NCBI GenBank assembly: GCA_021443545.1
Contig: JABUTU010000037.1
Location: 24,207-88,206, forward strand
Direction of reading: 5' to 3'
Length of the DNA: 64,000 nt
Origin: Marinilabiliaceae bacterium
GTDB lineage: Bacteria; Bacteroidota; Bacteroidia; Bacteroidales; Marinilabiliaceae
Position numbers and translations under genes: made by a program. The first letter of the stretch is position 1. Each line of letters opens with the position of its first letter. Shown here piece by piece: positions 44,920-64,000 of the stretch. Under the pieces are notes generated by a model that was not told where the DNA came from, did no database searches, and was given only the letters and a program-made list of their open reading frames with translations.

Positions 44920-45723
44920 TTAGAATTTGAAATCTTCTCTCTTGATATGTTCGTTTCTCGATTTGTATTCCGCAATATCTTTCTCCATTTGCGCCGTGGC
45001 ACACTTAAAGAAAAAATGAATCAAGAACTCGTCAGTTCCCTCTTTTCTAATGAGGTTGAGAGAGTCAATATATTCTTGACGGTTGGCAGAATCTATTATC
45101 ATCATTGGACATTTCATCTTCAGCAAAATCAGATTGCTGAAAAGTCGCCCTATCCTGCCATTCCCATCCCGAAAAGGATGAAGATATTCGTAGAAACCAT
45201 GGAACTTAGCCGCAACAATCATTGGATGTATCTCGGCAGCATCAATTGTTCTTTGCGTTGATTGCAATAGTGTTGGTATTCGTGATATAAGAAGTTCATG
45301 ATTTCCAAAGATGGTCTCTCCATCGCACATATCGGTGTCGGTATATTCTCCTGCGACAGCTCTTGGAACTCTGTACGACAATGTGTTTTTCATCAAAATA
45401 CGATGACACTCCTTAAGCATCTCTTCGGAGAGAGGGTTTTCTACATTCTGAAGGATATACTCGTATGCCTTGAAGTGGTCCAGAATTTCAAAAGCCTCAT
45501 AAAGAGTCTTCCCATGAGGAATAACCCCAAGCCCTTTCTCTTTTAATTCCTGCGTGTCGCCAACCGTGAAACTATTTCCCTCGATGGCACAACTATGCGA
45601 GGAGAACAATATCTCGTGTCGTTTTTTCAGATCCTCAACAGATATTCTTGCTCCAACCAACTTTTCGTATTCCGAAATAATAGCCTCGTACTTGTCAATA
45701 TCCTCTTTGTAGATTGTGTTCAT
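44920..45723 (-). CDS. Fic-domain protein (AMPylase-type)
   Basis: The 267-aa protein has the canonical Fic motif HPFRDGNGRIGR at 182-193 (catalytic H182) and an N-terminal inhibitory segment SCAIEGN near 44-50, which fits class II Fic proteins whose inhibitory glutamate (E48) blocks ATP binding. Fic enzymes attach AMP or related groups to protein hydroxyls. Its start overlaps the upstream GT2 gene by 4 nt, and GT32 follows after 18 nt, so it is translated with the glycan genes. No antitoxin-like neighbour is seen. Confidence 0.92.
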   Translation of the reverse strand: MNTIYKEDIDKYEAIISEYEKLVGARISVEDLKKRHEILFSSHSCAIEGNSFTVGDTQELKEKGLGVIPHGKTLYEAFEILDHFKAYEYILQNVENPLSEEMLKECHRILMKNTLSYRVPRAVAGEYTDTDMCDGETIFGNHELLISRIPTLLQSTQRTIDAAEIHPMIVAAKFHGFYEYLHPFRDGNGRIGRLFSNLILLKMKCPMMIIDSANRQEYIDSLNLIRKEGTDEFLIHFFFKCATAQMEKDIAEYKSRNEHIKREDFKF

Positions 45724-46709: not shown

Positions 46710-47864
46710 CTAAAAATAAGCACGAAGACGTTCTATCATTTCAAGCAATGACACCACAGTTATTTCAGGTTTATACTCCCATCCTTTCTCAACCATAGCA
46801 ACAACCAAGGTGTGTGTTGGTTTGATATCTTTGATGGACTCGTATGTTCCTCTATGTAAAATTGGAGAAGATGACGATTTGCATTCAATGCAGATAATGG
46901 TGTCACCATATTCAAGGACAAAATCCATTTCGCTTCCAGCGACCGTTCTGTAAAAATATACTGCGACGTCAGGGAAGTTACCCTTTATTGTGGTTAGCAC
47001 AATCTGCTCCCATATGCTTCCAAAAACCTGATGATGATAGACCGATTCAAAGGAGTTTAGAGACAACAGCGTGGCAGTGATCCCGCTGTCAGCAATATAT
47101 ACCTTGGGCGACTTAGTGATGCGCTTATTAGTATTTGCCATGTAAGGTTCTACTTGAATAACCATATATGTTTCTGTCAGCAAATCAATGTAATGCCTTA
47201 TCGTCACAGAACTCATGTCTAATGCTTTTGCCATTGTGGAACAGTTTAACAACTGTCCATTATTGTTTGCAAGCATTATCCATAATCGCCTCATCGTTGT
47301 TGGAACAAAATTGCGCCAGAACTTCAGGTCACGTTCGAGGTATGTCTCAATAAAACTCTTTCTCCACTTTATTGAAAAGTCATTCGAGCCAAGTAAACTT
47401 CGTGGAAAGCCTCCTTTAAAGATATACTCAGAAATGCTCGATATGTCATTAACCTCGTTATACAAAAAAGGCGTCAGGGAATGATATACAACCCGTCCTG
47501 CAAGTGATTCGCTACTCTGTTTAATAAGGTCGCGCGATGCTGAACCCAATATGATAATATGAGAATCGCCATCGTTCTCATCAACCAAACTACGAAGGAG
47601 CGGGAACAACTCTGGCTTTCGCTGAATTTCGTCGATGCATATCAACTTTCCTTTCTGGCTACGAAGAAACCACTCTGCATCGTCCAGTTTAGCCAAGTCC
47701 GACGGAAGTTCAAGATCTATGTATATAGTGTTGTCATATTCAGAAAGTAATTGCTTCGACAAAGTAGATTTTCCACACTGACGAGGTCCAAGAATCGCAA
47801 CAATAGGCCACTCTTCAGTATCTTTTTTAATTGATTTTTCTATCTGTCTGAATATTAATGACAT
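46710..47864 (-). CDS. AAA ATPase with DUF4143 C-terminal domain
   Basis: The 384-aa protein has Walker A GPRQCGKST (26-34), Walker B LICIDEIQRKPEL (about 75-87) and a sensor-like ILGSASRDL, typical of the AAA_14 family. The C-terminal half carries a winged-helix-like segment (TMRRLWIMLANNNGQLLNCSTMAKAL) and the DUF4143 nuclease-like core with EMDFVLEYGDTIICIECKSS (E, D, E-x-K). These genes are common accessory genes whose role is unknown. It breaks the run of glycan genes between the sulfatase remnant and GT2. Confidence 0.88.
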   Translation of the reverse strand: MSLIFRQIEKSIKKDTEEWPIVAILGPRQCGKSTLSKQLLSEYDNTIYIDLELPSDLAKLDDAEWFLRSQKGKLICIDEIQRKPELFPLLRSLVDENDGDSHIIILGSASRDLIKQSSESLAGRVVYHSLTPFLYNEVNDISSISEYIFKGGFPRSLLGSNDFSIKWRKSFIETYLERDLKFWRNFVPTTMRRLWIMLANNNGQLLNCSTMAKALDMSSVTIRHYIDLLTETYMVIQVEPYMANTNKRITKSPKVYIADSGITATLLSLNSFESVYHHQVFGSIWEQIVLTTIKGNFPDVAVYFYRTVAGSEMDFVLEYGDTIICIECKSSSSPILHRGTYESIKDIKPTHTLVVAMVEKGWEYKPEITVVSLLEMIERLRAYF

Positions 47865-47965
47865 GCCATTTTGTTATATCTTGTTTTTGCTTGCAAATTT
47901 AAAACTGAATTTTAAATCTGCAAGCATTATTCGTTCAAACTGTACACAAACTATTTGAAATTCTT

Positions 47966-48028
47966 TCAATCCAAATCAACATCTTTAAAATAGTTTGCTC
48001 TAATCAGTTTGTCACTTAGGTACGATGC
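47966..48028 (-). pseudogene. Remnant of the 3' end of a sulfatase-type gene
   Basis: These 63 nt match the last 21 codons (stop included) of the sulfatase-type gene at 49085-49147 at 56 of 63 positions. The first 29 nt read from the plus strand's right end (48000-48028) are identical. On the minus strand they read SYLSDKLIRANYFK in frame up to a TGA, and an in-frame TAA stands immediately before, so nothing longer is coded. It is a fossil of a second copy of that gene. Confidence 0.85.
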
Positions 48029-48057
48029 TTTTTAATGTAAGATGCGAACTTGTTATG

Positions 48058-49044
48058 TCAGAATAGAGATGGTAATAGTCGTTTCAGTATTCTACCCAAG
48101 AAGATGCACAAAACGCATAGAGGGATAGTGACAATGCAATTGTATATATCAGTGGTTAACTTCTCGCTCCAAGGAAGTGTACTCCACTGGATAATGAATT
48201 CACCAAGCTGCTTGATTCCTGGGACGAACAAATCGTGAAGAATCAGTATAAAGATAGTGTTGACACCAAACCAAGAGAGAATGTTGGATAAACTATGGCA
48301 ATATCTTGCGATGAAATGCGATGCAGTGAAGACAAGTATTATCAAGGCAAAAGCTGCTATAAGAGAAGGAAAATAGAAGTGGCTAAACGCAAATTGATGA
48401 ATGTTTGTAAATGTTTCTATTTTATACAAATATAGGGCAGCAATAGCGGAAATTAATACGATTTTCCAGTTTAGCCAAGCGCAACTCAGCCAATATTCTT
48501 TGAATTTGTATCCTGTGACAAAGAATGGGATGACCAAGAGGGAATGTCCAATAAACAGGGTGTTTTTAATATGCATAAGACTAAGGCTGAAACCTGCAAG
48601 AGCCAATATGACATATACAGCAATTTTGATTAAATCCGATTTCAGTAGGTTCTCGACTGCATATACAATCATCATAAGATAGAATAGAGTGAGCAAAAAC
48701 CACAGCGGCACATTGCTAACTAACCAGAAATTGTAAAAACCTGACTCAATAACAAGTTTGGCAGTTGCAAAATTCTTAAAGAAACACTCAATAATGAACC
48801 CGATTACTAATCCAACCAAGAGAGGACCAAGTAGTCGCCTTGCTTTTGAACGAAAGAACTCTTTGAATGGCTTTTTTGTATTGACAAATATCCCTGATAT
48901 CAGAAAGAATAGGGGCATGAAGAAAAGATTAAAAATCCTTCCCAAATTACCTGGAGCATCAAGATGATAAAGAGCCACACACAAAATTGTTATTCCCTTA
49001 GCTATGTCAATGAATGCAATTCGGTTGTTTTGGAATTCTGTCAT
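48058..49044 (-). CDS. Acyltransferase family 3 membrane protein
   Basis: The 328-aa protein has about ten membrane segments and the family opening RIAFIDIAKGITILCVALYHLDAPGNL, with the conserved histidine in helix 1, then FFMPLFFLISGIFVNTKKPFKEFFRSKARRLLGPLL. Such proteins O-acetylate or otherwise acylate surface glycans. It is bracketed by the sulfatase gene (right) and a remnant of the sulfatase 3' end (left), which suggests that it arrived, or was kept, by recombination. Confidence 0.88.
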   Translation of the reverse strand: MTEFQNNRIAFIDIAKGITILCVALYHLDAPGNLGRIFNLFFMPLFFLISGIFVNTKKPFKEFFRSKARRLLGPLLVGLVIGFIIECFFKNFATAKLVIESGFYNFWLVSNVPLWFLLTLFYLMMIVYAVENLLKSDLIKIAVYVILALAGFSLSLMHIKNTLFIGHSLLVIPFFVTGYKFKEYWLSCAWLNWKIVLISAIAALYLYKIETFTNIHQFAFSHFYFPSLIAAFALIILVFTASHFIARYCHSLSNILSWFGVNTIFILILHDLFVPGIKQLGEFIIQWSTLPWSEKLTTDIYNCIVTIPLCVLCIFLGRILKRLLPSLF

Positions 49045-49084
49045 AATAATTGAAGTCTGTTAAAACGGAAATAGGATATTACTC

Positions 49085-50887
49085 TTATTCCAACTCTACC
49101 TCTTTAAAATAGTTCGCCCTAATCAGTTTGTCACTTAGGTACGATGCCTTTTCTGGCGATATAAAACGATTTTCGCGTTCTGTAGTATCACGCAAATCTA
49201 CGCCTAACCCTTTGTATTTATATTCGTTATGACCAATTGCACTCAAAATCGTCGGGAACATATCCATTTGATAGCATACAGAATTGTAATGCTCTGCAGA
49301 GTCGAAATCAGGACTATACATTATGAAAGGAGTGTAGTGCTCGGTATATTTCCCTTGTTCAGTGCGATAGTCACAAAACTGCTTATGATATTCTGCTCGG
49401 TTAAGAATAGTGTGGTCGCCAGTAATTACCAAAACAGTATTGTCAAAATACTTAGACTCGGCGAATTTATCCAAAATTTTACCTATGCAAGAATCTGCGT
49501 AATGGAATGTTTTCACATAATTGTTTATGTCGTGGTATTTTTCGGAGTTTTCATCAACGAAAGAACTATTAACAAAATTGAATGGCATGTGAGTTGACAT
49601 TGTTATTGTTTGAATGCAAAAATCGGCTTTTAATAAATCCATTATCTCATTGTTTTTGTCAGCAATATCCAAATCTTTCCATTGAGCTTCTGTATCCGAT
49701 TTTCCAACTTGTCCGTTGTACCCATAACATTTTGTCATACAGCGCTGATTCCAGACATCAATTTCAGGGTTGACAATTAAAGAGTTTTTATAAAAATGTG
49801 CTAAGTTCGGATATGTGTTGTATGGATAATCAATAACTATAATACCTTCAACAATAGGCAATAGGCCAGTATTCAAAATAAATTGACCATCAGAAGATAT
49901 CCCCTTTTGAATTTGACATTTCAATTTATCTGCGTAAAAAACGTTATTCTTTTTTATAAAAGAGTGCATATTAGGGCAGATTCTACTATCTTCTAATACC
50001 CAACTCTCAAACGATTCTACCAAGACAAGAATAAGATTAGTTCCCTTATTCTCAAAAGACTCTTTCTCTCTAAAAATGTACTTTAGTTCGTCGCTTTGCA
50101 AAATATCATCGGTCAATACTTGTTTTTCCCCTTCGGCCAATGTCACTGTACCTCCCTCAAACAGAAGAAGATCTTGTTTGCCCGAAAATAACATTTGTAC
50201 AAATCTGGCCATCACATTATATCTGCTGGTGTACATTTCAGTGACAATATTAGGTGAGAACCAGTTATTGAGATATTTATAAATTGTGATTTTAATGTCT
50301 GTCAGCGGGTTAAATATGCTCGTATACGAAATTCCGGCCTCTGCCAATATATCCTCTCCATCTTTCGGAAAACTCTTCAACTCTATAACGTTATTCCCAA
50401 TGCAAGCAAAATAATAAAGTGCTAATCCGACGAAGAAAGCCTTAACACATCGCCTTTTTACTGTAAATATCGAGGTTATGATAGTCACAATGGTCGATAT
50501 AGGGAAAGCAAGCCAGCGCCACTCCATCAGTGCAATAACGCTTGACTCAAAACCTCTCAAGTTGCCTAAACATGAAACTGCGTTTAAAGCAAAGAAGTCG
50601 TCGTAAAACTTGTGATACGTTAGATTTGCAATAATCCATCCGTCGATTAAGAAGAGAAGAATGTGCATTGCCCAGCGTCTCTTCAGAAGGAATGCAAAAC
50701 ATGTTATCAGGAATGGTGCGAATAGCTTTCTTCCCCAAAATAGCGCTATACGAAGTGCGTCGCCTTCAATATCTTTCGGTAAAAACGGGTCAAAGCAAAA
50801 ATACTGAAAGCATATATTCTTGAATACAAGTACTATAAATAATATGTATAGATACGTATTATACTTATTTGGCAAAAAATATTTCAA
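49085..50887 (-). CDS. LTA-synthase-like sulfatase-fold phosphotransferase
   Basis: The 600-aa protein has five N-terminal membrane segments (about 12-165) and an extracytoplasmic sulfatase-fold domain. Metal and catalytic residues are visible: E291 in VLVESFES, the nucleophile S331 or S332 in GISSDGQF, the histidine in STHMPFNF and the D-H pair in VITGDHT. Relatives (LtaS, OpgB/MdoB) transfer phosphoglycerol or related groups to glycans or lipids. It would decorate the polysaccharide here, which is unusual for a Gram-negative locus. The start is ATG 50887. Confidence 0.82.
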   Translation of the reverse strand: MKYFLPNKYNTYLYILFIVLVFKNICFQYFCFDPFLPKDIEGDALRIALFWGRKLFAPFLITCFAFLLKRRWAMHILLFLIDGWIIANLTYHKFYDDFFALNAVSCLGNLRGFESSVIALMEWRWLAFPISTIVTIITSIFTVKRRCVKAFFVGLALYYFACIGNNVIELKSFPKDGEDILAEAGISYTSIFNPLTDIKITIYKYLNNWFSPNIVTEMYTSRYNVMARFVQMLFSGKQDLLLFEGGTVTLAEGEKQVLTDDILQSDELKYIFREKESFENKGTNLILVLVESFESWVLEDSRICPNMHSFIKKNNVFYADKLKCQIQKGISSDGQFILNTGLLPIVEGIIVIDYPYNTYPNLAHFYKNSLIVNPEIDVWNQRCMTKCYGYNGQVGKSDTEAQWKDLDIADKNNEIMDLLKADFCIQTITMSTHMPFNFVNSSFVDENSEKYHDINNYVKTFHYADSCIGKILDKFAESKYFDNTVLVITGDHTILNRAEYHKQFCDYRTEQGKYTEHYTPFIMYSPDFDSAEHYNSVCYQMDMFPTILSAIGHNEYKYKGLGVDLRDTTERENRFISPEKASYLSDKLIRANYFKEVELE

Positions 50888-57067: not shown

Positions 57068-57091
57068 GATAATGAATTACGATAATGAATG
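57068..57091. repeat. Left repeat flanking the acyltransferase gene
   Basis: GATAATGAAT occurs twice (57068-57077 and 57081-57090). The 24-nt stretch overlaps the start codon of the acyltransferase gene. Its reverse complement matches 58141-58163 at 18 of about 23 positions. Confidence 0.45.
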
Positions 57092-58104
57092 AACGTATTT
57101 CTTGGATAGATTCTGTAAAAGGCGTAGCGATGCTTTTAGTCATTGCAATACATCTGTGCGGATTGTCATCACCTATCATATATCTGTGTTATGGTTTTAT
57201 GGCGGTGTTTTATATCGTTTCGGGGTATACACATGCCTCAAGAACTCCAATATCAAATCAGATTGCAAAAAAAACTAAGAGGTTTTTTATTCCATGTCTC
57301 TTTTATGGAATATTGGGTATTTGCATATATGTATTATGCCATGATGGCACTGATTATATTCGAGCACTATTCGGATTGATATATGGACGATGGGCACTTT
57401 ATCCAATTGACCACGAAGGAGAAAATGTATTGTTTCTGGGTGAATGCAACCCTGTAACACCCCTTTGGTTTTTATATTCATTGTATATTTCATATCTGAT
57501 ATTTTATGCCTATAAAAAGTTTTCTAACTATAGACTTGTATTTATTCTGCTATTATCACTCCTTGCACTTGCAAGCGTCTATAAACCTATTTTGTTCCCT
57601 TGGAGTCTTGATACAGCACCATTAACAGCGTTGTTTATTATTTTTGGAGATTTTCTGTCAACAACTCACCTTTTTGCCACAGCTGATAAAAACAGAAAAT
57701 TATTATTTCTATCTCTAATAGTATTAGGCCTTTTGTATTATGTGTTGTGTAAGATAAATTTAATGCCAAATCTTGCATTAGGTATTTATGGTAAGTATGG
57801 ATTATATAGTGTCTTTTTGTATTTTATTATAGGAGTTTTAGATGCTATTATATTGAGTCTTTCATGTTTGATTGTTGATAAAACCTTTATTGGCAAGTTT
57901 CTTTCATATACAGGAAGGCATTCATTAAGATTAATGTGTATTCATTGGATAATTGGTGACGCTGTGATTTTATGTCTAAATGATAGCGTATCGAAATATG
58001 TTGCACTGTTCATATCTTTGGTAATAATATATCTAATTGATGCATTAGTATCAAAAGTATGTTCATTGTGGAAGAACGATTTTAGTTTGATGAAATATAT
58101 TTAG
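57085..58104 (+). CDS. Acyltransferase family 3 membrane protein
   Basis: The 339-aa protein has about ten membrane segments and begins RISWIDSVKGVAMLLVIAIHLCGLSSP, with the conserved helix-1 histidine, then YGFMAVFYIVSGYTHASR. It may O-acylate a glycan and is the first gene of the plus unit. The gene is visibly more AT-rich than the following flippase gene and is bracketed by related repeats at both ends. A paralogue of the same family lies at 48058 in the minus unit, but the two sequences are not close. Confidence 0.85.
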   Translation: MNERISWIDSVKGVAMLLVIAIHLCGLSSPIIYLCYGFMAVFYIVSGYTHASRTPISNQIAKKTKRFFIPCLFYGILGICIYVLCHDGTDYIRALFGLIYGRWALYPIDHEGENVLFLGECNPVTPLWFLYSLYISYLIFYAYKKFSNYRLVFILLLSLLALASVYKPILFPWSLDTAPLTALFIIFGDFLSTTHLFATADKNRKLLFLSLIVLGLLYYVLCKINLMPNLALGIYGKYGLYSVFLYFIIGVLDAIILSLSCLIVDKTFIGKFLSYTGRHSLRLMCIHWIIGDAVILCLNDSVSKYVALFISLVIIYLIDALVSKVCSLWKNDFSLMKYI

Positions 58105-58126
58105 GCTGTAGATACTAACAAAAACA

Positions 58127-58162
58127 ATAACTATAACGGTCATTAGTTATCGTTATAGTTAT
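58127..58162. repeat. 12-bp perfect inverted repeat (hairpin)
   Basis: ATAACTATAACG (58127-58138) is the exact reverse complement of CGTTATAGTTAT (58151-58162), with a 12-nt loop. No T-run follows. It stands between the acyltransferase and flippase genes of the plus unit. Confidence 0.7.
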
Positions 58163-58181
58163 CTTTATCAGTTATCGTTAT
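58145..58181 (+). repeat. Two 12-bp direct repeats before the second flippase
   Basis: AGTTATCGTTAT occurs at 58145-58156 and 58170-58181, 25 nt apart, just before the start codon at 58189. The first copy shares bases with the hairpin arm at 58151-58162. Confidence 0.7.
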
Positions 58182-58188
58182 CGTTTAA

Positions 58189-59565
58189 ATGTCAGTTACT
58201 AAAGGAATACTTCAGAATAGTGCGCTTTTGACGATTCAGAAGCTTGTTAGGGTCTTGGATCAGCTCTTGCTGGTGCCCTTCTTCCTGACTCAATGGGGAG
58301 CGGAGTACTATGGCGAGTGGTTGACCTTGACGATTATCCCAAGCATCCTTGCATTCTCTGATCTCGGTGTGGGTACAGCTGCAGGCAATGGTTTTGTCCT
58401 CGCATACACCAAAGGCGATAAGCAAAGGGCGGCGGATATATCGAAATGTGGGTTATTAATAGCCTCTGTCGCAGTCATGCTCGGAATGCTGATAACAGTG
58501 GGTGTCCTGCTGTCGGGCGACTATTTCGGTCTCTTTGATAAGTCGCTTATTGATGCTCACGAGGCGATGTTGGCTGTCTCACTCCTAATGGCTTCAAGGT
58601 TGTCGGGGTTCTTTGCCCAGTTGATAGAGGGTTATTTCAGAGCTGCGAGGAAAGCTCCTATGGCGGTTTTGTTTCACATTGGGTACGGCTTATTGACGAT
58701 TTGTGTTTCAATCATTGTTTTATATGCAGGTTGTGGAGTTGTTGGCTACTCCCTATCTGTTCTTGTTGCTCATATTGTTTATTCCTTCGTTTACTTCATC
58801 TATGGTCGTTCCTTAGTTGATTTTGAGAAATGCAGAGGTGTAGTTCGCTTTGCTGAGCTTAAGGGGTTAATGCTCAAGGGTCTTGGTTATTTGGCTGATC
58901 CAATATGGCAAGCGATATATTTCCAGGGCTCTACCTTTGTGGTCAGAATTGTTCTCGGACCGGCGAGTGTCGCCATGTTCAATACTGTGCGGACGGTATG
59001 TCGTTCGGTGAATCAGCTATTCTCAATTGTCAATTTTGGAGTTTTTCCTGAGATGCAGTATGAGTATGGGCGAGGGAACTTGCCGATTGTACAGAGGCTC
59101 TTCAGGGTTTCGATACTGGTGTCGTTAGTCATCGCTCTTTGTGGTTTTGTCGTTCTGCTCTTTGCGGGACCATATATTTATAACCTGTGGACGCATAACG
59201 AACTTATTGTGCCGTCGGATGTGTGGCTGGTCTTTATGTTAGGAGTTGTCTTGAATGCTATATGGTGGACTGCAATGGTTGTCTATCGAGTGACAAATAA
59301 GCCATATCATTTTGCAGTTGTCGCTACGATTATGGCTTCTCTATCGGTCGGAATGAGTTATATTCTCGCGGGATTTTTTGGGCTGTTAGGCGTTGCATTG
59401 GGTGCCTTGTTATTCGATGTGGTTATGGTTTTGTTTGTGCCCAATGATGCCTGCAAGCTGTTGTCGATGAGTGGCTGTGATTTATGGACTCACTTCAGTC
59501 AAGATTTGGAAACAGTGAAGAGTGTAGTCTCTAATAGATTGGGATTTGCAAGGAATAATAATTAG
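58189..59565 (+). CDS. wzx: Second polysaccharide flippase (Wzx-like, MOP superfamily)
   Basis: The 458-aa protein has about 12 membrane segments. It opens MSVTKGILQNSALLTIQKLVRVLDQLLLVPFFLTQWGAEYYGEWLTL, the pattern of a Wzx-type flippase (oligosaccharide flippase family). It differs clearly from the WzxC-like protein at 53868 in both sequence and branch. Its base composition is less AT-rich than its neighbours. It would serve the polymerase at 60552. Confidence 0.85.
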   Translation: MSVTKGILQNSALLTIQKLVRVLDQLLLVPFFLTQWGAEYYGEWLTLTIIPSILAFSDLGVGTAAGNGFVLAYTKGDKQRAADISKCGLLIASVAVMLGMLITVGVLLSGDYFGLFDKSLIDAHEAMLAVSLLMASRLSGFFAQLIEGYFRAARKAPMAVLFHIGYGLLTICVSIIVLYAGCGVVGYSLSVLVAHIVYSFVYFIYGRSLVDFEKCRGVVRFAELKGLMLKGLGYLADPIWQAIYFQGSTFVVRIVLGPASVAMFNTVRTVCRSVNQLFSIVNFGVFPEMQYEYGRGNLPIVQRLFRVSILVSLVIALCGFVVLLFAGPYIYNLWTHNELIVPSDVWLVFMLGVVLNAIWWTAMVVYRVTNKPYHFAVVATIMASLSVGMSYILAGFFGLLGVALGALLFDVVMVLFVPNDACKLLSMSGCDLWTHFSQDLETVKSVVSNRLGFARNNN

Positions 59566-59665
59566 TATTTCCTCGCATGACACCATCGAACAATTGACGT
59601 GGGAAGCTTGTGGATAAAGATATATAGAATTTTTGAATAGTAGACTTAAATAAAATTTTGAGATT

Positions 59666-60580
59666 ATGAAACGGATGAAGCCTGTTTGGCGATGGCTGGT
59701 AAATAATATTACTTTTTTTACATATGTAGAATCCCTCAGATATCGTAGTGAAGCAAAATTTCTAAATAGAATTAGCGATACAATAAAGCCAACAATTCAT
59801 TTTATTCATGTTTATTATACTAATAATACTGGAGATTTGGCGTGTGGATATTATCAGTATTGCATGCCTTTTTTTAAAGATTATAATTGTGTAATTCATA
59901 ATATCAGGCATGTAAATTTTAATATGATAAAAAAATCAGATATTGTTATTGTAGGAGGTGGCGGATTAATAAATGCATTAAACGAATGGAATTATTCAAT
60001 TAACAAAGCAATTCGGTTAGCAGGAAAATCTATTCTGTGGTCTGCGGGATATAATAGCTTTTTGGGTAAATGTAAGATAGAAATAGATTTTAGTCGATTT
60101 ACTCTCAAGGCAATAAGAGATTTTAATCATAGTAGTGGATTGCGGTATGTTCCATGTGCAACTTGTTTAAGTCCGCTTTTTATGAAACAATACGATAAGA
60201 AGAGACGCTTGGGAATAGTAGTTCATAAAAACTTCAAAGATGTGCCAGAAGAAATTAGAGGGTGTCAAGTGATAGAAAATACTTGTTCTATTGAAGAAAT
60301 GGTATCTTTTATAGCAGAATCAGAGGTAATCGTTACAAGTAGTTATCACGCAGCTTACTGGAGTTCTTTATTAAAAACAAAGTGCGTTATTTTTTCTGTA
60401 CATTCTGTAAAATTTGAGTTTTTTAAGTATAAGCCAGTAGTGTATAGCGGGAATATTGAAAAGGATATATTAGACGCAAGAGTGTATGATAATGCCTTGT
60501 CTGAGAGCCAAAAAGATGTGAGTGAGTTCAGAGACCAAATCTACCACTTAATTGAGAGTTCTTGTGCAAATAAAAATTAG
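59666..60580 (+). CDS. Polysaccharide pyruvyltransferase-like protein
   Basis: The 304-aa protein has the layout of the pyruvyltransferase family (CsaB/WcaK-like): TNNTGDLACGYY near the N-terminus (N-x-GD), DIVIVGGGGLIN (about 93-104), SILWSAGYNS, and VIVTSSYHAAYWSSLLKTKCVIF in the C-terminal half, where the S-x-Y-H-A-A segment matches the family's R/S-x-H-x-x-x motif. It could add ketal pyruvate to a sugar or may act on another substrate. The gene is very AT-rich. It precedes the polymerase, whose start overlaps it by 29 nt. Confidence 0.75.
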   Translation: MKRMKPVWRWLVNNITFFTYVESLRYRSEAKFLNRISDTIKPTIHFIHVYYTNNTGDLACGYYQYCMPFFKDYNCVIHNIRHVNFNMIKKSDIVIVGGGGLINALNEWNYSINKAIRLAGKSILWSAGYNSFLGKCKIEIDFSRFTLKAIRDFNHSSGLRYVPCATCLSPLFMKQYDKKRRLGIVVHKNFKDVPEEIRGCQVIENTCSIEEMVSFIAESEVIVTSSYHAAYWSSLLKTKCVIFSVHSVKFEFFKYKPVVYSGNIEKDILDARVYDNALSESQKDVSEFRDQIYHLIESSCANKN

Positions 60581-62174
60581 AAAGACTAATAAGAGAATAC
60601 GTGTTGCGTCGGCTGTCAGGTTGATATTACTGATAGTTCTGATATTATCGGCTCTAAGTGAGATGCTCTTCTTTTTCAGCATTCCAAATTTGTTGGGGTG
60701 TGTTATGGCAATCGTTGCGTTCTATCTATATAGTCGTTTCGTTTTGTCAGAACGAAATATTGTTGAGCGACCATTCTCCTTTTTTGCAATGACTACTCTC
60801 TTCCTATACAGGTTTTTATGTTTGCCTGCGACGTTGTTGGAGGGTCATCCGATTAGTTTTATGATGGTTGTACCCGAGCAGACTTTCCCGTTAGAGATTT
60901 TGTTGTATCTATTCATCATAGCTTCTTTTGTCTCTTCCAAAGGAAATAGTAATAGAAACAACTGGTTTGTAACCAACCTGAGAACAACTGGCTTGTATGC
61001 ACCACCCTCTAATGGTGTCCTTTGGGCATTAGGATTTATAGGGTTATATGCTTCTATTTTTCAACGCTCTGTTCATGGTATTGAGTATGGCGATGTGTTG
61101 AGTAAGTTCATTGTTGGTTTTGCATATCTTCAGTATGCCCCACTCTTGATATTGTTTAACAGATTGACGCATAGAGGAGACTCTCAGAGTGAAAGGTCTT
61201 TAGTCTATATCTATATTCTCCTTCTTCTATACTTAGGCATTGGATCAAACTCACGACAACAGATGTTATATTCTGTGGGAACAATAGCTCTATTATGGTT
61301 CTTGGATGCTGTTGTAAAAAAAAGGACAATTCGCAGTTTCGCATCATTTGGTTATGTTTTGATGGCTATTCTCGCCGTATTTATGTTGAATGCCTTTTCT
61401 GATTTCTCGGATGCCATGCTCTATAACCGAAAGATTAGGGCGGATGTCACCTATTCGGAGTTGATAGAACGTACCTTCGACACCTACAACGATGATGAGT
61501 TGATGACGAAGATAAGGAATGAGCGTCACGAATCGTTTCAGGAGGCTGAAGGCGCAATGGTGGTTGCTGAAAAATGGGATGAAACCTATATCGATAACTT
61601 CATGCTTAATCGCTATTGCAATGTGCGAATAACCGATGCCACACTCAACCTTGCAAATAAATTGGAATGGCCAAATAGCATCATGCAGGCCGATTACCTT
61701 CAGCGGTTGATAATACTCTTGCCTACGCCAGTGATTAACTTTCTTGGTATCAGATTAGATAAAAATGATTTGTCGAATTCAAGAGGCGATTTTTTGTACG
61801 CATTAGCCAATAATCAACGAGTATTTGCGAGTTATCGAGTTACATCATCACTTGCCGATGGATTAGCCACCTTTGGGTGGTGGTATTTCGGAGTTCAATT
61901 CATCTTATATTGGTTGATATTTAAGTTGTTGGACTCATTAACCTGTGTGGTTAACGGAGTGCGTTATTATTCTCCATTAGGTCTGTTGTCTGTCTTTGCG
62001 TATTTCGGTAAGACACGTAATGGCGGTACGGGATGTATTAATGATGCTTCATTCTTACTCCGCAGTTTCTGGCAGAGTTTGATATTGTATTTGGTGGTAA
62101 TGTATGTTGCTAATATTTTTGCCAAATCTCAGAAAGCTAAGTTGAGAACAGTGAGTAATGTGCAAAAAGAATAA
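60552..62174 (+). CDS. wzy: Second O-antigen polymerase-like protein (Wzy)
   Basis: The 540-aa protein has about 12 membrane segments and a large periplasmic loop (about 280-390, with LIERTFDTYNDDELMTKIRNERHE and AEKWDETYIDNFMLNRYCNVRITD), as in Wzy polymerases; homology to the first Wzy is not evident. A start codon is uncertain: TTG 60552 overlaps the upstream gene by 29 nt and GTG 60564 is an alternative. It is unusual in length for a Wzy (commonly 400-450). Confidence 0.6.
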   Translation: MRVLVQIKIRKTNKRIRVASAVRLILLIVLILSALSEMLFFFSIPNLLGCVMAIVAFYLYSRFVLSERNIVERPFSFFAMTTLFLYRFLCLPATLLEGHPISFMMVVPEQTFPLEILLYLFIIASFVSSKGNSNRNNWFVTNLRTTGLYAPPSNGVLWALGFIGLYASIFQRSVHGIEYGDVLSKFIVGFAYLQYAPLLILFNRLTHRGDSQSERSLVYIYILLLLYLGIGSNSRQQMLYSVGTIALLWFLDAVVKKRTIRSFASFGYVLMAILAVFMLNAFSDFSDAMLYNRKIRADVTYSELIERTFDTYNDDELMTKIRNERHESFQEAEGAMVVAEKWDETYIDNFMLNRYCNVRITDATLNLANKLEWPNSIMQADYLQRLIILLPTPVINFLGIRLDKNDLSNSRGDFLYALANNQRVFASYRVTSSLADGLATFGWWYFGVQFILYWLIFKLLDSLTCVVNGVRYYSPLGLLSVFAYFGKTRNGGTGCINDASFLLRSFWQSLILYLVVMYVANIFAKSQKAKLRTVSNVQKE

Positions 62175-62232
62175 CAGTGAAAGCTAAGGCGGTAATCGTA
62201 AAATGCGAACTGTAAGTTAATAGGGAGGTAAT

Positions 62233-63276
62233 ATGCGAGTTCTTTCAGTTGGTAGTTTTTCGAGATTGAGCAATACTTGTCTTCATCGTACATGGGCGTT
62301 GAAGAGTATTGCAGACCATGTTGATGAGGTCAATACTACATCCTGTCCTGCGACACTATGGTACAGGATTGCCTATCATCTCTTCTTGTGGGGCTTGCCT
62401 GTACCTATTCCGCAGAACAACAGTGAGAATGACGTGATAAAGAGATTAGTGGATGAAAACGCATACGACATTGTATGGATTGATAAGGGTAATAGCATTG
62501 CTCCTGAGACCATCCGATATATACGCACGAAACAGCCATCAGCTAAGATTGTCTCCTATTCTCCCGATAATATGGCACTACGCCATAACCAAAGTCAGCA
62601 GTTCGTGGAGTCAATTCCCTTGTACGACCTTCACGTCACGACAAAGAGTTATATCATCGACGACTTGAAGCGTCTTGGGGCAAAGCAGGTTATGTTTGTC
62701 AATAAAAGTTATGCTAAGGAGTTTCACTACCCGCGTGAGGTCGACGAGGCGGATTATGAGCGGTTGGGTGAGGATGTCGGCTTTATCGGAGCATGGGAAG
62801 AGGAGCGCTGTCGGAGTATGATATACCTCGCCACGCATGGCATACGCGTTCGTGTCTGGGGCGGAGGAAAGTGGAATGACTACAGGGATGTCTCGCCAAA
62901 CCTGCGAATCGAGGGGCGCTACTTGTTTGATGAGGATTATTCAAAGGCGTTGCGACTATTCAAGATTTCGCTCTGTTTCCTGCGTAAGATGAATTACGAC
63001 CAGCAGACCTCTCGAACGATGGAGATACCAGCAAGTGGTGGTTTCATGTTGGCGGAGAGAACCTCCGAGCATCAGTCGCTCTTCAGGGAGGGCGAAGAGG
63101 CGGAATTCTTCTCGAGCGACGAGGAACTGCTTGAGAAATGCCGTTATTACCTTGCCACCCCAGCCGAGAGGGAGCGCATAGCTCAGGCTGGGACGCGTCG
63201 TTGCTTGGAGAGCGACTATTCGAATGAGGGTATGGTACGACGGGTGCTTCGGGAGTTGGGTTTTGAAAAGTTTTAG
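62233..63276 (+). CDS. CgeB-like glycosyltransferase
   Basis: The 347-aa GT-B protein begins MRVLSVGSFSRLSNTCLHRTWALKSI and has the CgeB/DUF3880-type pattern: DIVWIDKGNSIAPETI, VGFIGAWEEERCRSM, RVWGGGKWNDY, FKISLCFLRKMNYDQQTSRTMEIPASGGFMLAE and TSEHQSLFREGEEAEFFSSDEELLEKCRYY near the end, the last being a characteristic CgeB-type C-terminus. Its base composition is richer in G+C than that of its two AT-rich neighbours. It is probably cotranscribed with the following gene (3 nt gap). Confidence 0.82.
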   Translation: MRVLSVGSFSRLSNTCLHRTWALKSIADHVDEVNTTSCPATLWYRIAYHLFLWGLPVPIPQNNSENDVIKRLVDENAYDIVWIDKGNSIAPETIRYIRTKQPSAKIVSYSPDNMALRHNQSQQFVESIPLYDLHVTTKSYIIDDLKRLGAKQVMFVNKSYAKEFHYPREVDEADYERLGEDVGFIGAWEEERCRSMIYLATHGIRVRVWGGGKWNDYRDVSPNLRIEGRYLFDEDYSKALRLFKISLCFLRKMNYDQQTSRTMEIPASGGFMLAERTSEHQSLFREGEEAEFFSSDEELLEKCRYYLATPAERERIAQAGTRRCLESDYSNEGMVRRVLRELGFEKF

Positions 63277-63279
63277 TCT

Positions 63280-64000
63280 ATGAAAGTTCTCTATATATAC
63301 AGAAATCCTAAAATGGGTTTTTCAATAGGTAAGGTATTCCGACCCATTGAAGAGGAGATGAGAAAATATGCCGAGGTGAATAGTCTATATATGCCTGAAT
63401 TTGGATATGGACTGAAAAGTTTGGTCAAAAATATTAAGTGTGTAAGAAAGGCAGTAGCATCTGAAAAATATGACATTGTTCATATTACAGGGACTGAGCA
63501 TTATTTGATTCCATTCTTAAGAAAAGGAAATGTAGTAATAACTATTCATGATTTGGGCTTTTTTACTAATAAGAAACTTAGTCTATCATCGATAAGTAAG
63601 TATTTTATTTGGATTAAGACATTGCCTCTTGCTAAACGAGTGACGTTTATTTCAGAATCAAGTAAACAAGAGGCAGAAAAGTATGTAAAATTTACAAATG
63701 GTCAAGCAAGTGTAATTCCTGATCCTTTTGATAAAGCTTATGAGTATTCACCCAAAAAAATAAATGGCGATTGCCCAAGAGTCTTGCATATAGGGTCAAA
63801 ACCTAACAAGAATTTGAATAATACGATTCTTGCACTGGAAGGTATGAACTGTCATTTTAGGATTGTTGCGAAAATATCTGATTCTCAAAAAGAACAACTT
63901 GATTTGCTGAAAATTGACTATTCGGTGGTGTGTAATATTTCAGATGACGAGATGTTACAAGAGTATAAAGACTGTGATATTGTAAGTTTTCCCTCGTTAT
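63280..64000 (+). CDS. Glycosyltransferase family 4, cut by the window edge
   Basis: The reading frame opens at ATG 63280, 3 nt after the CgeB-like stop, and continues without a stop to the right edge (240 codons seen). It begins MKVLYIYRNPKMGFSIGKVFRPIEE, with DIVHITG near 66-72, NVVITIHDLGFF, RVTFISESSKQEA and the GT4 second-domain opening PRVLHIGSKPNKNLNNTILAL. The donor-binding E-x7-E lies beyond the edge. The gene is AT-rich. It is too long to be chance and is clearly a GT4 enzyme. Confidence 0.85.
   Translation, partial: MKVLYIYRNPKMGFSIGKVFRPIEEEMRKYAEVNSLYMPEFGYGLKSLVKNIKCVRKAVASEKYDIVHITGTEHYLIPFLRKGNVVITIHDLGFFTNKKLSLSSISKYFIWIKTLPLAKRVTFISESSKQEAEKYVKFTNGQASVIPDPFDKAYEYSPKKINGDCPRVLHIGSKPNKNLNNTILALEGMNCHFRIVAKISDSQKEQLDLLKIDYSVVCNISDDEMLQEYKDCDIVSFPSL

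Follow-up and report, generated by a model that had tools for sequence, protein, structure and literature searches.

Truncated genes are left at the recombination joints of surface-polysaccharide loci in the pneumococcal cps regions, and the flagellin gene fliC is a mosaic surface gene in which conserved ends enclose an exchanged centre. Both systems offer a comparison for a locus of a Marinilabiliaceae bacterium (Bacteroidales), from which a stretch of 64,000 nucleotides, called the window here, was analysed. The window contains an intact gene for an LtaS-like membrane sulfatase/phosphotransferase, set among the many glycosyltransferases of a surface-polysaccharide locus, and a second copy of the 3' end of this gene. 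As among the cps remnants, a partial gene of a biosynthesis locus lies beside an intact relative, apparently after exchange of a neighbouring gene. In contrast to them, no more than the final 21 codons make up the relic in the window, and this gene end appears as a repeated joint in other genomes. A search of the literature for this case yielded nothing specific.

The solved relatives of the sulfatase are lipoteichoic acid synthases. Like the LtaS phosphoglycerol transferases, the protein combines a membrane N-terminus with an extracytoplasmic sulfatase fold. Unlike them, it belongs to a Gram-negative member of the Bacteroidales, and its NCBIfam LtaS-related score of 99.4 bits stays far below the equivalog cut-off of 970. 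The features of the locus are as follows.

49085 to 50887, minus strand: LtaS-like membrane sulfatase/phosphotransferase gene, 600 amino acids, TTG start (Pfam Sulfatase, 1.5e-17)
49082 to 49152, minus strand: tail A, with which the intact sulfatase gene ends (from codon K580 through the stop, and a few further nucleotides; repeat D1, codon comparison)
48058 to 49044, minus strand: acyltransferase gene, 328 amino acids (Acyl_transf_3, 4.8e-26, profile positions 2-304 of 326, essentially full length)
47963 to 48033, minus strand: tail B, probable remnant of another sulfatase allele's 3' end (repeat D1, 64 nt at 90.6%, codon comparison)
47887 to 47926, no strand assigned: near-perfect hairpin between tail B and the ATPase gene, 18-bp stem and 3-nt loop (fold -25 kcal/mol, z -4.95)
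46710 to 47864, minus strand: AAA_14/DUF4143 ATPase gene, starting about 100 nt past the stop of tail B (Pfam DUF4143, 1.1e-36; AAA_14, 3.4e-29)

All genes of this region are read from the minus strand; the sulfatase comes first, then the acyltransferase, tail B and the DUF4143 ATPase. A repeat search returned the two tails as a direct repeat, D1, with two copies of 71 nt at 87% identity and a spacing of 1119. Comparison of the window with itself by blastn gave the same pair as 64 nt at 90.6% identity (E=4e-18) and no other self-repeat at E<=0.01; in the own genome, the DNA of tail B matched only itself and the sulfatase end. The first-pass annotation had reported that the last 63 nt of the sulfatase gene recur with 56 of 63 bases equal and one identical run of 29 nt, and codon-by-codon comparison of these 63 nt reproduced both figures exactly. 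The match is slightly longer than first noted. It starts at sulfatase codon K580 and, in tail B, extends to 48033; 8 positions differ in the 66 nt from K580 to the stop codon. The acyltransferase reading frame sits wholly between the copies, as had been described.

We consider it highly probable that a second LtaS-like sulfatase allele, functional in the past, was the origin of tail B, and that recombination stranded this 3' end. This reading is built on the pattern of differences between the tails. The intact gene ends in EKASYLSDKLIRANYFKEVELE, and the translation of tail B is KASYLSDKLIRANYFKDVDLD followed by a stop. Read codon by codon, tail B gives K-ASYLSDKLIRANYFK-DVDLD-stop where the intact gene has EVELE-stop. 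All seven differences in sense codons fall on third positions (chance approximately (1/3)^7 = 5e-4); four are silent and three are conservative exchanges of E to D. The eighth difference lies in the stop codon, which is TAA in the intact gene and TGA in tail B. Since the differences are restricted to third positions and the stop is kept, the two tails must have diverged as the coding ends of two functional genes under protein-level selection. A copy drifting as noncoding DNA would be expected to differ at all positions and to carry a frameshift. Neither pattern is seen, and tail B was stranded recently, with no visible neutral decay since.

The motif LSDKxIRxxYF is conserved at the C-terminus across the sulfatase family, and tails A and B use the same codon at 14 of their 18 shared residues, against a median of 0.40 for unrelated family tails (P ~0.001). 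This excess argues for homology at the DNA level, beyond what protein constraint alone would give. Together with the truncation to 21 codons and the missing start, it supports the view that tail B is what remains of a separate sulfatase gene that used to function.

The first-pass annotation had also stated that the copy keeps the frame of the protein end with no coding sequence upstream, and this was borne out: a TAA stands directly before tail B, and no ATG, GTG or TTG precedes it in frame. On these grounds we take it that tail B is not a gene, and the relic itself probably has no role now. The same observations weigh against reading tail B as a functional element, be it a small gene, a regulatory RNA, an integrase attachment site or the repeat of a diversity-generating retroelement, and they disfavour selection on the copy as a small gene, the case named at the outset as the one that would refute a scar. 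What speaks for such an element is the geometry of intact gene, cargo and displaced 3' end, which resembles that of elements integrating into gene ends, and the strong hairpin just beyond tail B. Tail B has no Rfam match, however, and we regard a functional element as improbable. An attachment site was rejected on the content of the insert, which is the acyltransferase only, with no integrase reading frame recognised between or beside the copies. A diversity-generating retroelement was rejected on the differing bases, which are 3 A, 4 T and 1 G in the copy and hence not confined to A; a reverse transcriptase reading frame was likewise not recognised between or beside the copies. A role as terminator or promoter was discarded, as promoter-like matches were only weak (23 found, 17 expected). 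The hairpin is followed by a run of T in neither direction, and nowhere else in the genome do both of its arms occur without mismatch; it has no second copy there.

The comparisons covered one genome per species, and the assembly of the window's species is incomplete, with 104 contigs and 88% completeness. This state of the assembly lends some weight to a further alternative, in which the duplicated tail would be an artefact of a metagenome bin of mixed strains. Against it stand the 8 differences in 66 nt, which follow a coding-like pattern, and the uniqueness of both copies; moreover, misjoining at a repeat would be expected to merge the tails into one hybrid and not to yield two distinct ones. 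A relic of the same kind also occurs in a different metagenome-assembled genome (locus L064, below). We therefore judge an artefact very unlikely.

The own genome encodes one paralog of the sulfatase, on contig C1, which is 48% identical and is flanked, by reading of the frames, by a phosphoglycerate mutase-like and a YgiQ-like gene. It was rejected as the source of tail B, because its tail is different and only 5 codons are identical at 9 shared residues. No ortholog of the sulfatase was detected at E<=1e-30 in the 14 other genomes of the genus. Among 15 genomes from the genus and 71 from the family, none had a close ortholog above 48% identity; a single-sequence scan of genome contigs and the viral contigs gave none either. 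In the window's species, covered by its one genome, neither the arrangement that preceded the event nor one with two sulfatases was seen. The source allele was not found among the family tails, the best other one being only 65% identical over 48 nt.

For the mechanism, we suggest that a recombination joint in or next to the 3' end of a sulfatase gene would leave the last 21 codons and the stop beyond the acyltransferase. The codon comparison places the breakpoint at codon 580. Such a joint could arise in two ways. Incoming DNA with the intact gene (sulfatase A) and the acyltransferase might replace the former gene (sulfatase B) up to the tail, or integrate at the tail. Alternatively, a tandem array of sulfatase A, acyltransferase and sulfatase B might lose the body of B by deletion. 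Both routes yield the same product and are indistinguishable here. The annotation had spoken of the scar of a homologous exchange or of a replaced second gene through which the acyltransferase was gained or swapped. Of this, the relic of a second sulfatase is upheld, and recombination at the 3' end proved to be recurrent in relatives; that the acyltransferase arrived or moved in the same event is plausible. Loss of the acyltransferase by future recombination between the 64-nt repeats would be possible in principle.

A search with a ten-member alignment yielded 167 encoding stretches from Bacteroidales metagenome-assembled genomes (MAGs), of which 80 loci were kept. Orphan sulfatase ends occurred in only two of about 90 surveyed loci, the window and L064, a rarity that counts against the proposed explanation. 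The order in L064 is sulfatase, DUF4143 ATPase and a chimeric reading frame of 81 codons (L064:8239-8484). The first 33 codons of this frame are the start of a glycosyltransferase, 97% identical in amino acids to that of L052, and the remainder is a sulfatase tail of 108 nt, 95.4% identical to the intact gene; the in-frame junction of the two parts lies at a K-x-F-G stretch common to both. Furthermore, the DNA of L064 and L066 is 88.8% identical across the ATPase and the sulfatase 3' part but much less alike over most of the 5' part, which indicates a crossover inside the sulfatase gene. The joints in these genomes argue that recombination at the 3' end of the sulfatase gene recurs in related Bacteroidales.

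Family genes in tandem were found in L070 and in L044 (same record as L096), where a 242-aa gene separates the two. They make a second gene realistic as the source of a relic. Two full sulfatase genes had been proposed as support for the scar, and such pairs do exist in related genomes, albeit in species other than that of the window. They favour tandem duplication followed by a deletion from just past the acyltransferase to codon 580 of sulfatase B, by which the tail would remain and the acyltransferase would not have been gained in the event. The first copy in L070 is broken, and the fusion in L064, from the start of a glycosyltransferase to a sulfatase tail, is of the deletion type expected under this scheme. 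The two-gene state was not seen, however, in the window's own genome or its 14 genus mates, and the window holds no 5' or internal remnant of B. Duplication with deletion is thus a tentative explanation, which we hold to fall somewhat short of an even chance.

Two details of the tandem loci were noted besides. An in-frame stop at about 988 interrupts the first sulfatase of L070 (L070:1-1653). Apparent additional tails downstream in L044 were rejected as low-complexity heptanucleotide repeats; repeats of this type (GAGTATT, AACTGAT) lie past the second sulfatase at L044:4587-4840.

The neighbours of tail B bear on the other route, by which an ancestral order of sulfatase B and ATPase would have received sulfatase A and the acyltransferase by recombination at the 3' end, displacing tail B. 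In the neighbour survey, six further loci had a DUF4143 ATPase after the sulfatase and on its strand, four of them within about 520 nt; the distance is 175-213 nt in L060, L064 and L066 and 522 nt in L085. The junction of tail B and ATPase, with its approximately 100 nt, accordingly looks like the older one, although the ATPases compared are only 25-29% identical to that of the window and a common neighbourhood need not be ancestral. Replacement is also consistent with the frequent exchange of gene bodies at conserved ends in the sulfatase family (see below) and with the isolated position of the acyltransferase, for which a search through 392 further genomes from the order gave no relative at E<=1e-40. 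On the other hand, no homology that could account for a normal crossover is seen at the joint between acyltransferase and tail B. On balance, the neighbour survey slightly favours replacement over tandem duplication with deletion, and we regard replacement as close to an even chance, if still below it.

Other genes of the region may be recorded here. A Fic-domain gene (44920-45723) and the DUF4143 ATPase gene (46710-47864) lie inside the glycosyltransferase operon. In relatives, BRO-like and RhuM-like genes (both by reading of the frames) and DUF4143 genes also adjoin the sulfatase. Adjacent genes at 57085-64000 of the window alternate between a GC3 of about 0.25 and one of 0.41-0.56, suggesting a patchwork locus.

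The wider family displayed a further pattern. In many pairs of MAGs, DNA identity is 75-98% both in the upstream flank, including the first codons, and in the final 140-240 nt of the sulfatase gene, and only about 47% in the body between. The values for upstream region, tail and body are 98.6%, 80% and 48% for L059 and L068, 91%, 95% and 50% for L092 and L107, and 91%, 83% and 46% for L069 and L105. Mosaic genes were seen in L048, L053, L058, L059, L065, L068, L069, L085, L092, L105, L107 and L112. In most mosaic pairs, same-codon use at shared residues is raised in the tail, reaching 0.62-0.90 where the signal is stronger, and in the body it lies at the null level or close to it. L058 and L059 present the reverse case, with a common body (90% in amino acids) and a tail that is not shared (0.51 same codon). 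The mismatched likeness of bodies and tails indicates that they have different histories. In a topology test, the body data rejected the grouping of the flanks (AU p 4e-124), and the short flank and tail data rejected neither grouping (AU p for the body grouping 0.13 with the flank and 0.38 with the tail). As this test is one-sided, it is mainly the mismatch of distances that suggests separate histories of bodies and ends.

Conserved ends around a diverged body, in several genomes, are a property of the wider family and not of the window itself. The family resembles fliC in this respect, with its conserved flank and 3' end and its exchanged body. It differs from it in what is exchanged, namely a membrane enzyme including its catalytic domain, found at several chromosomal sites in uncultured Bacteroidales. 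We tentatively propose, at rather less than even confidence, that the LtaS-like sulfatases of the Bacteroidales form a cassette-exchange family, in which 5' and 3' ends conserved at the DNA level would act as recombination arms that swap whole enzyme bodies, sometimes with neighbouring genes, between species. The tail copy in the window might then be a failed or cargo-carrying product of such an exchange.

The scar itself is ordinary gene reshuffling; of greater interest as a lead is the mosaicism of the family. The mixing of bodies and ends at several sites in uncultured gut Bacteroidales suggests selection to vary the modification of the cell surface, and the natural breakpoints described here would be useful for studying the exchange of envelope genes in these bacteria.
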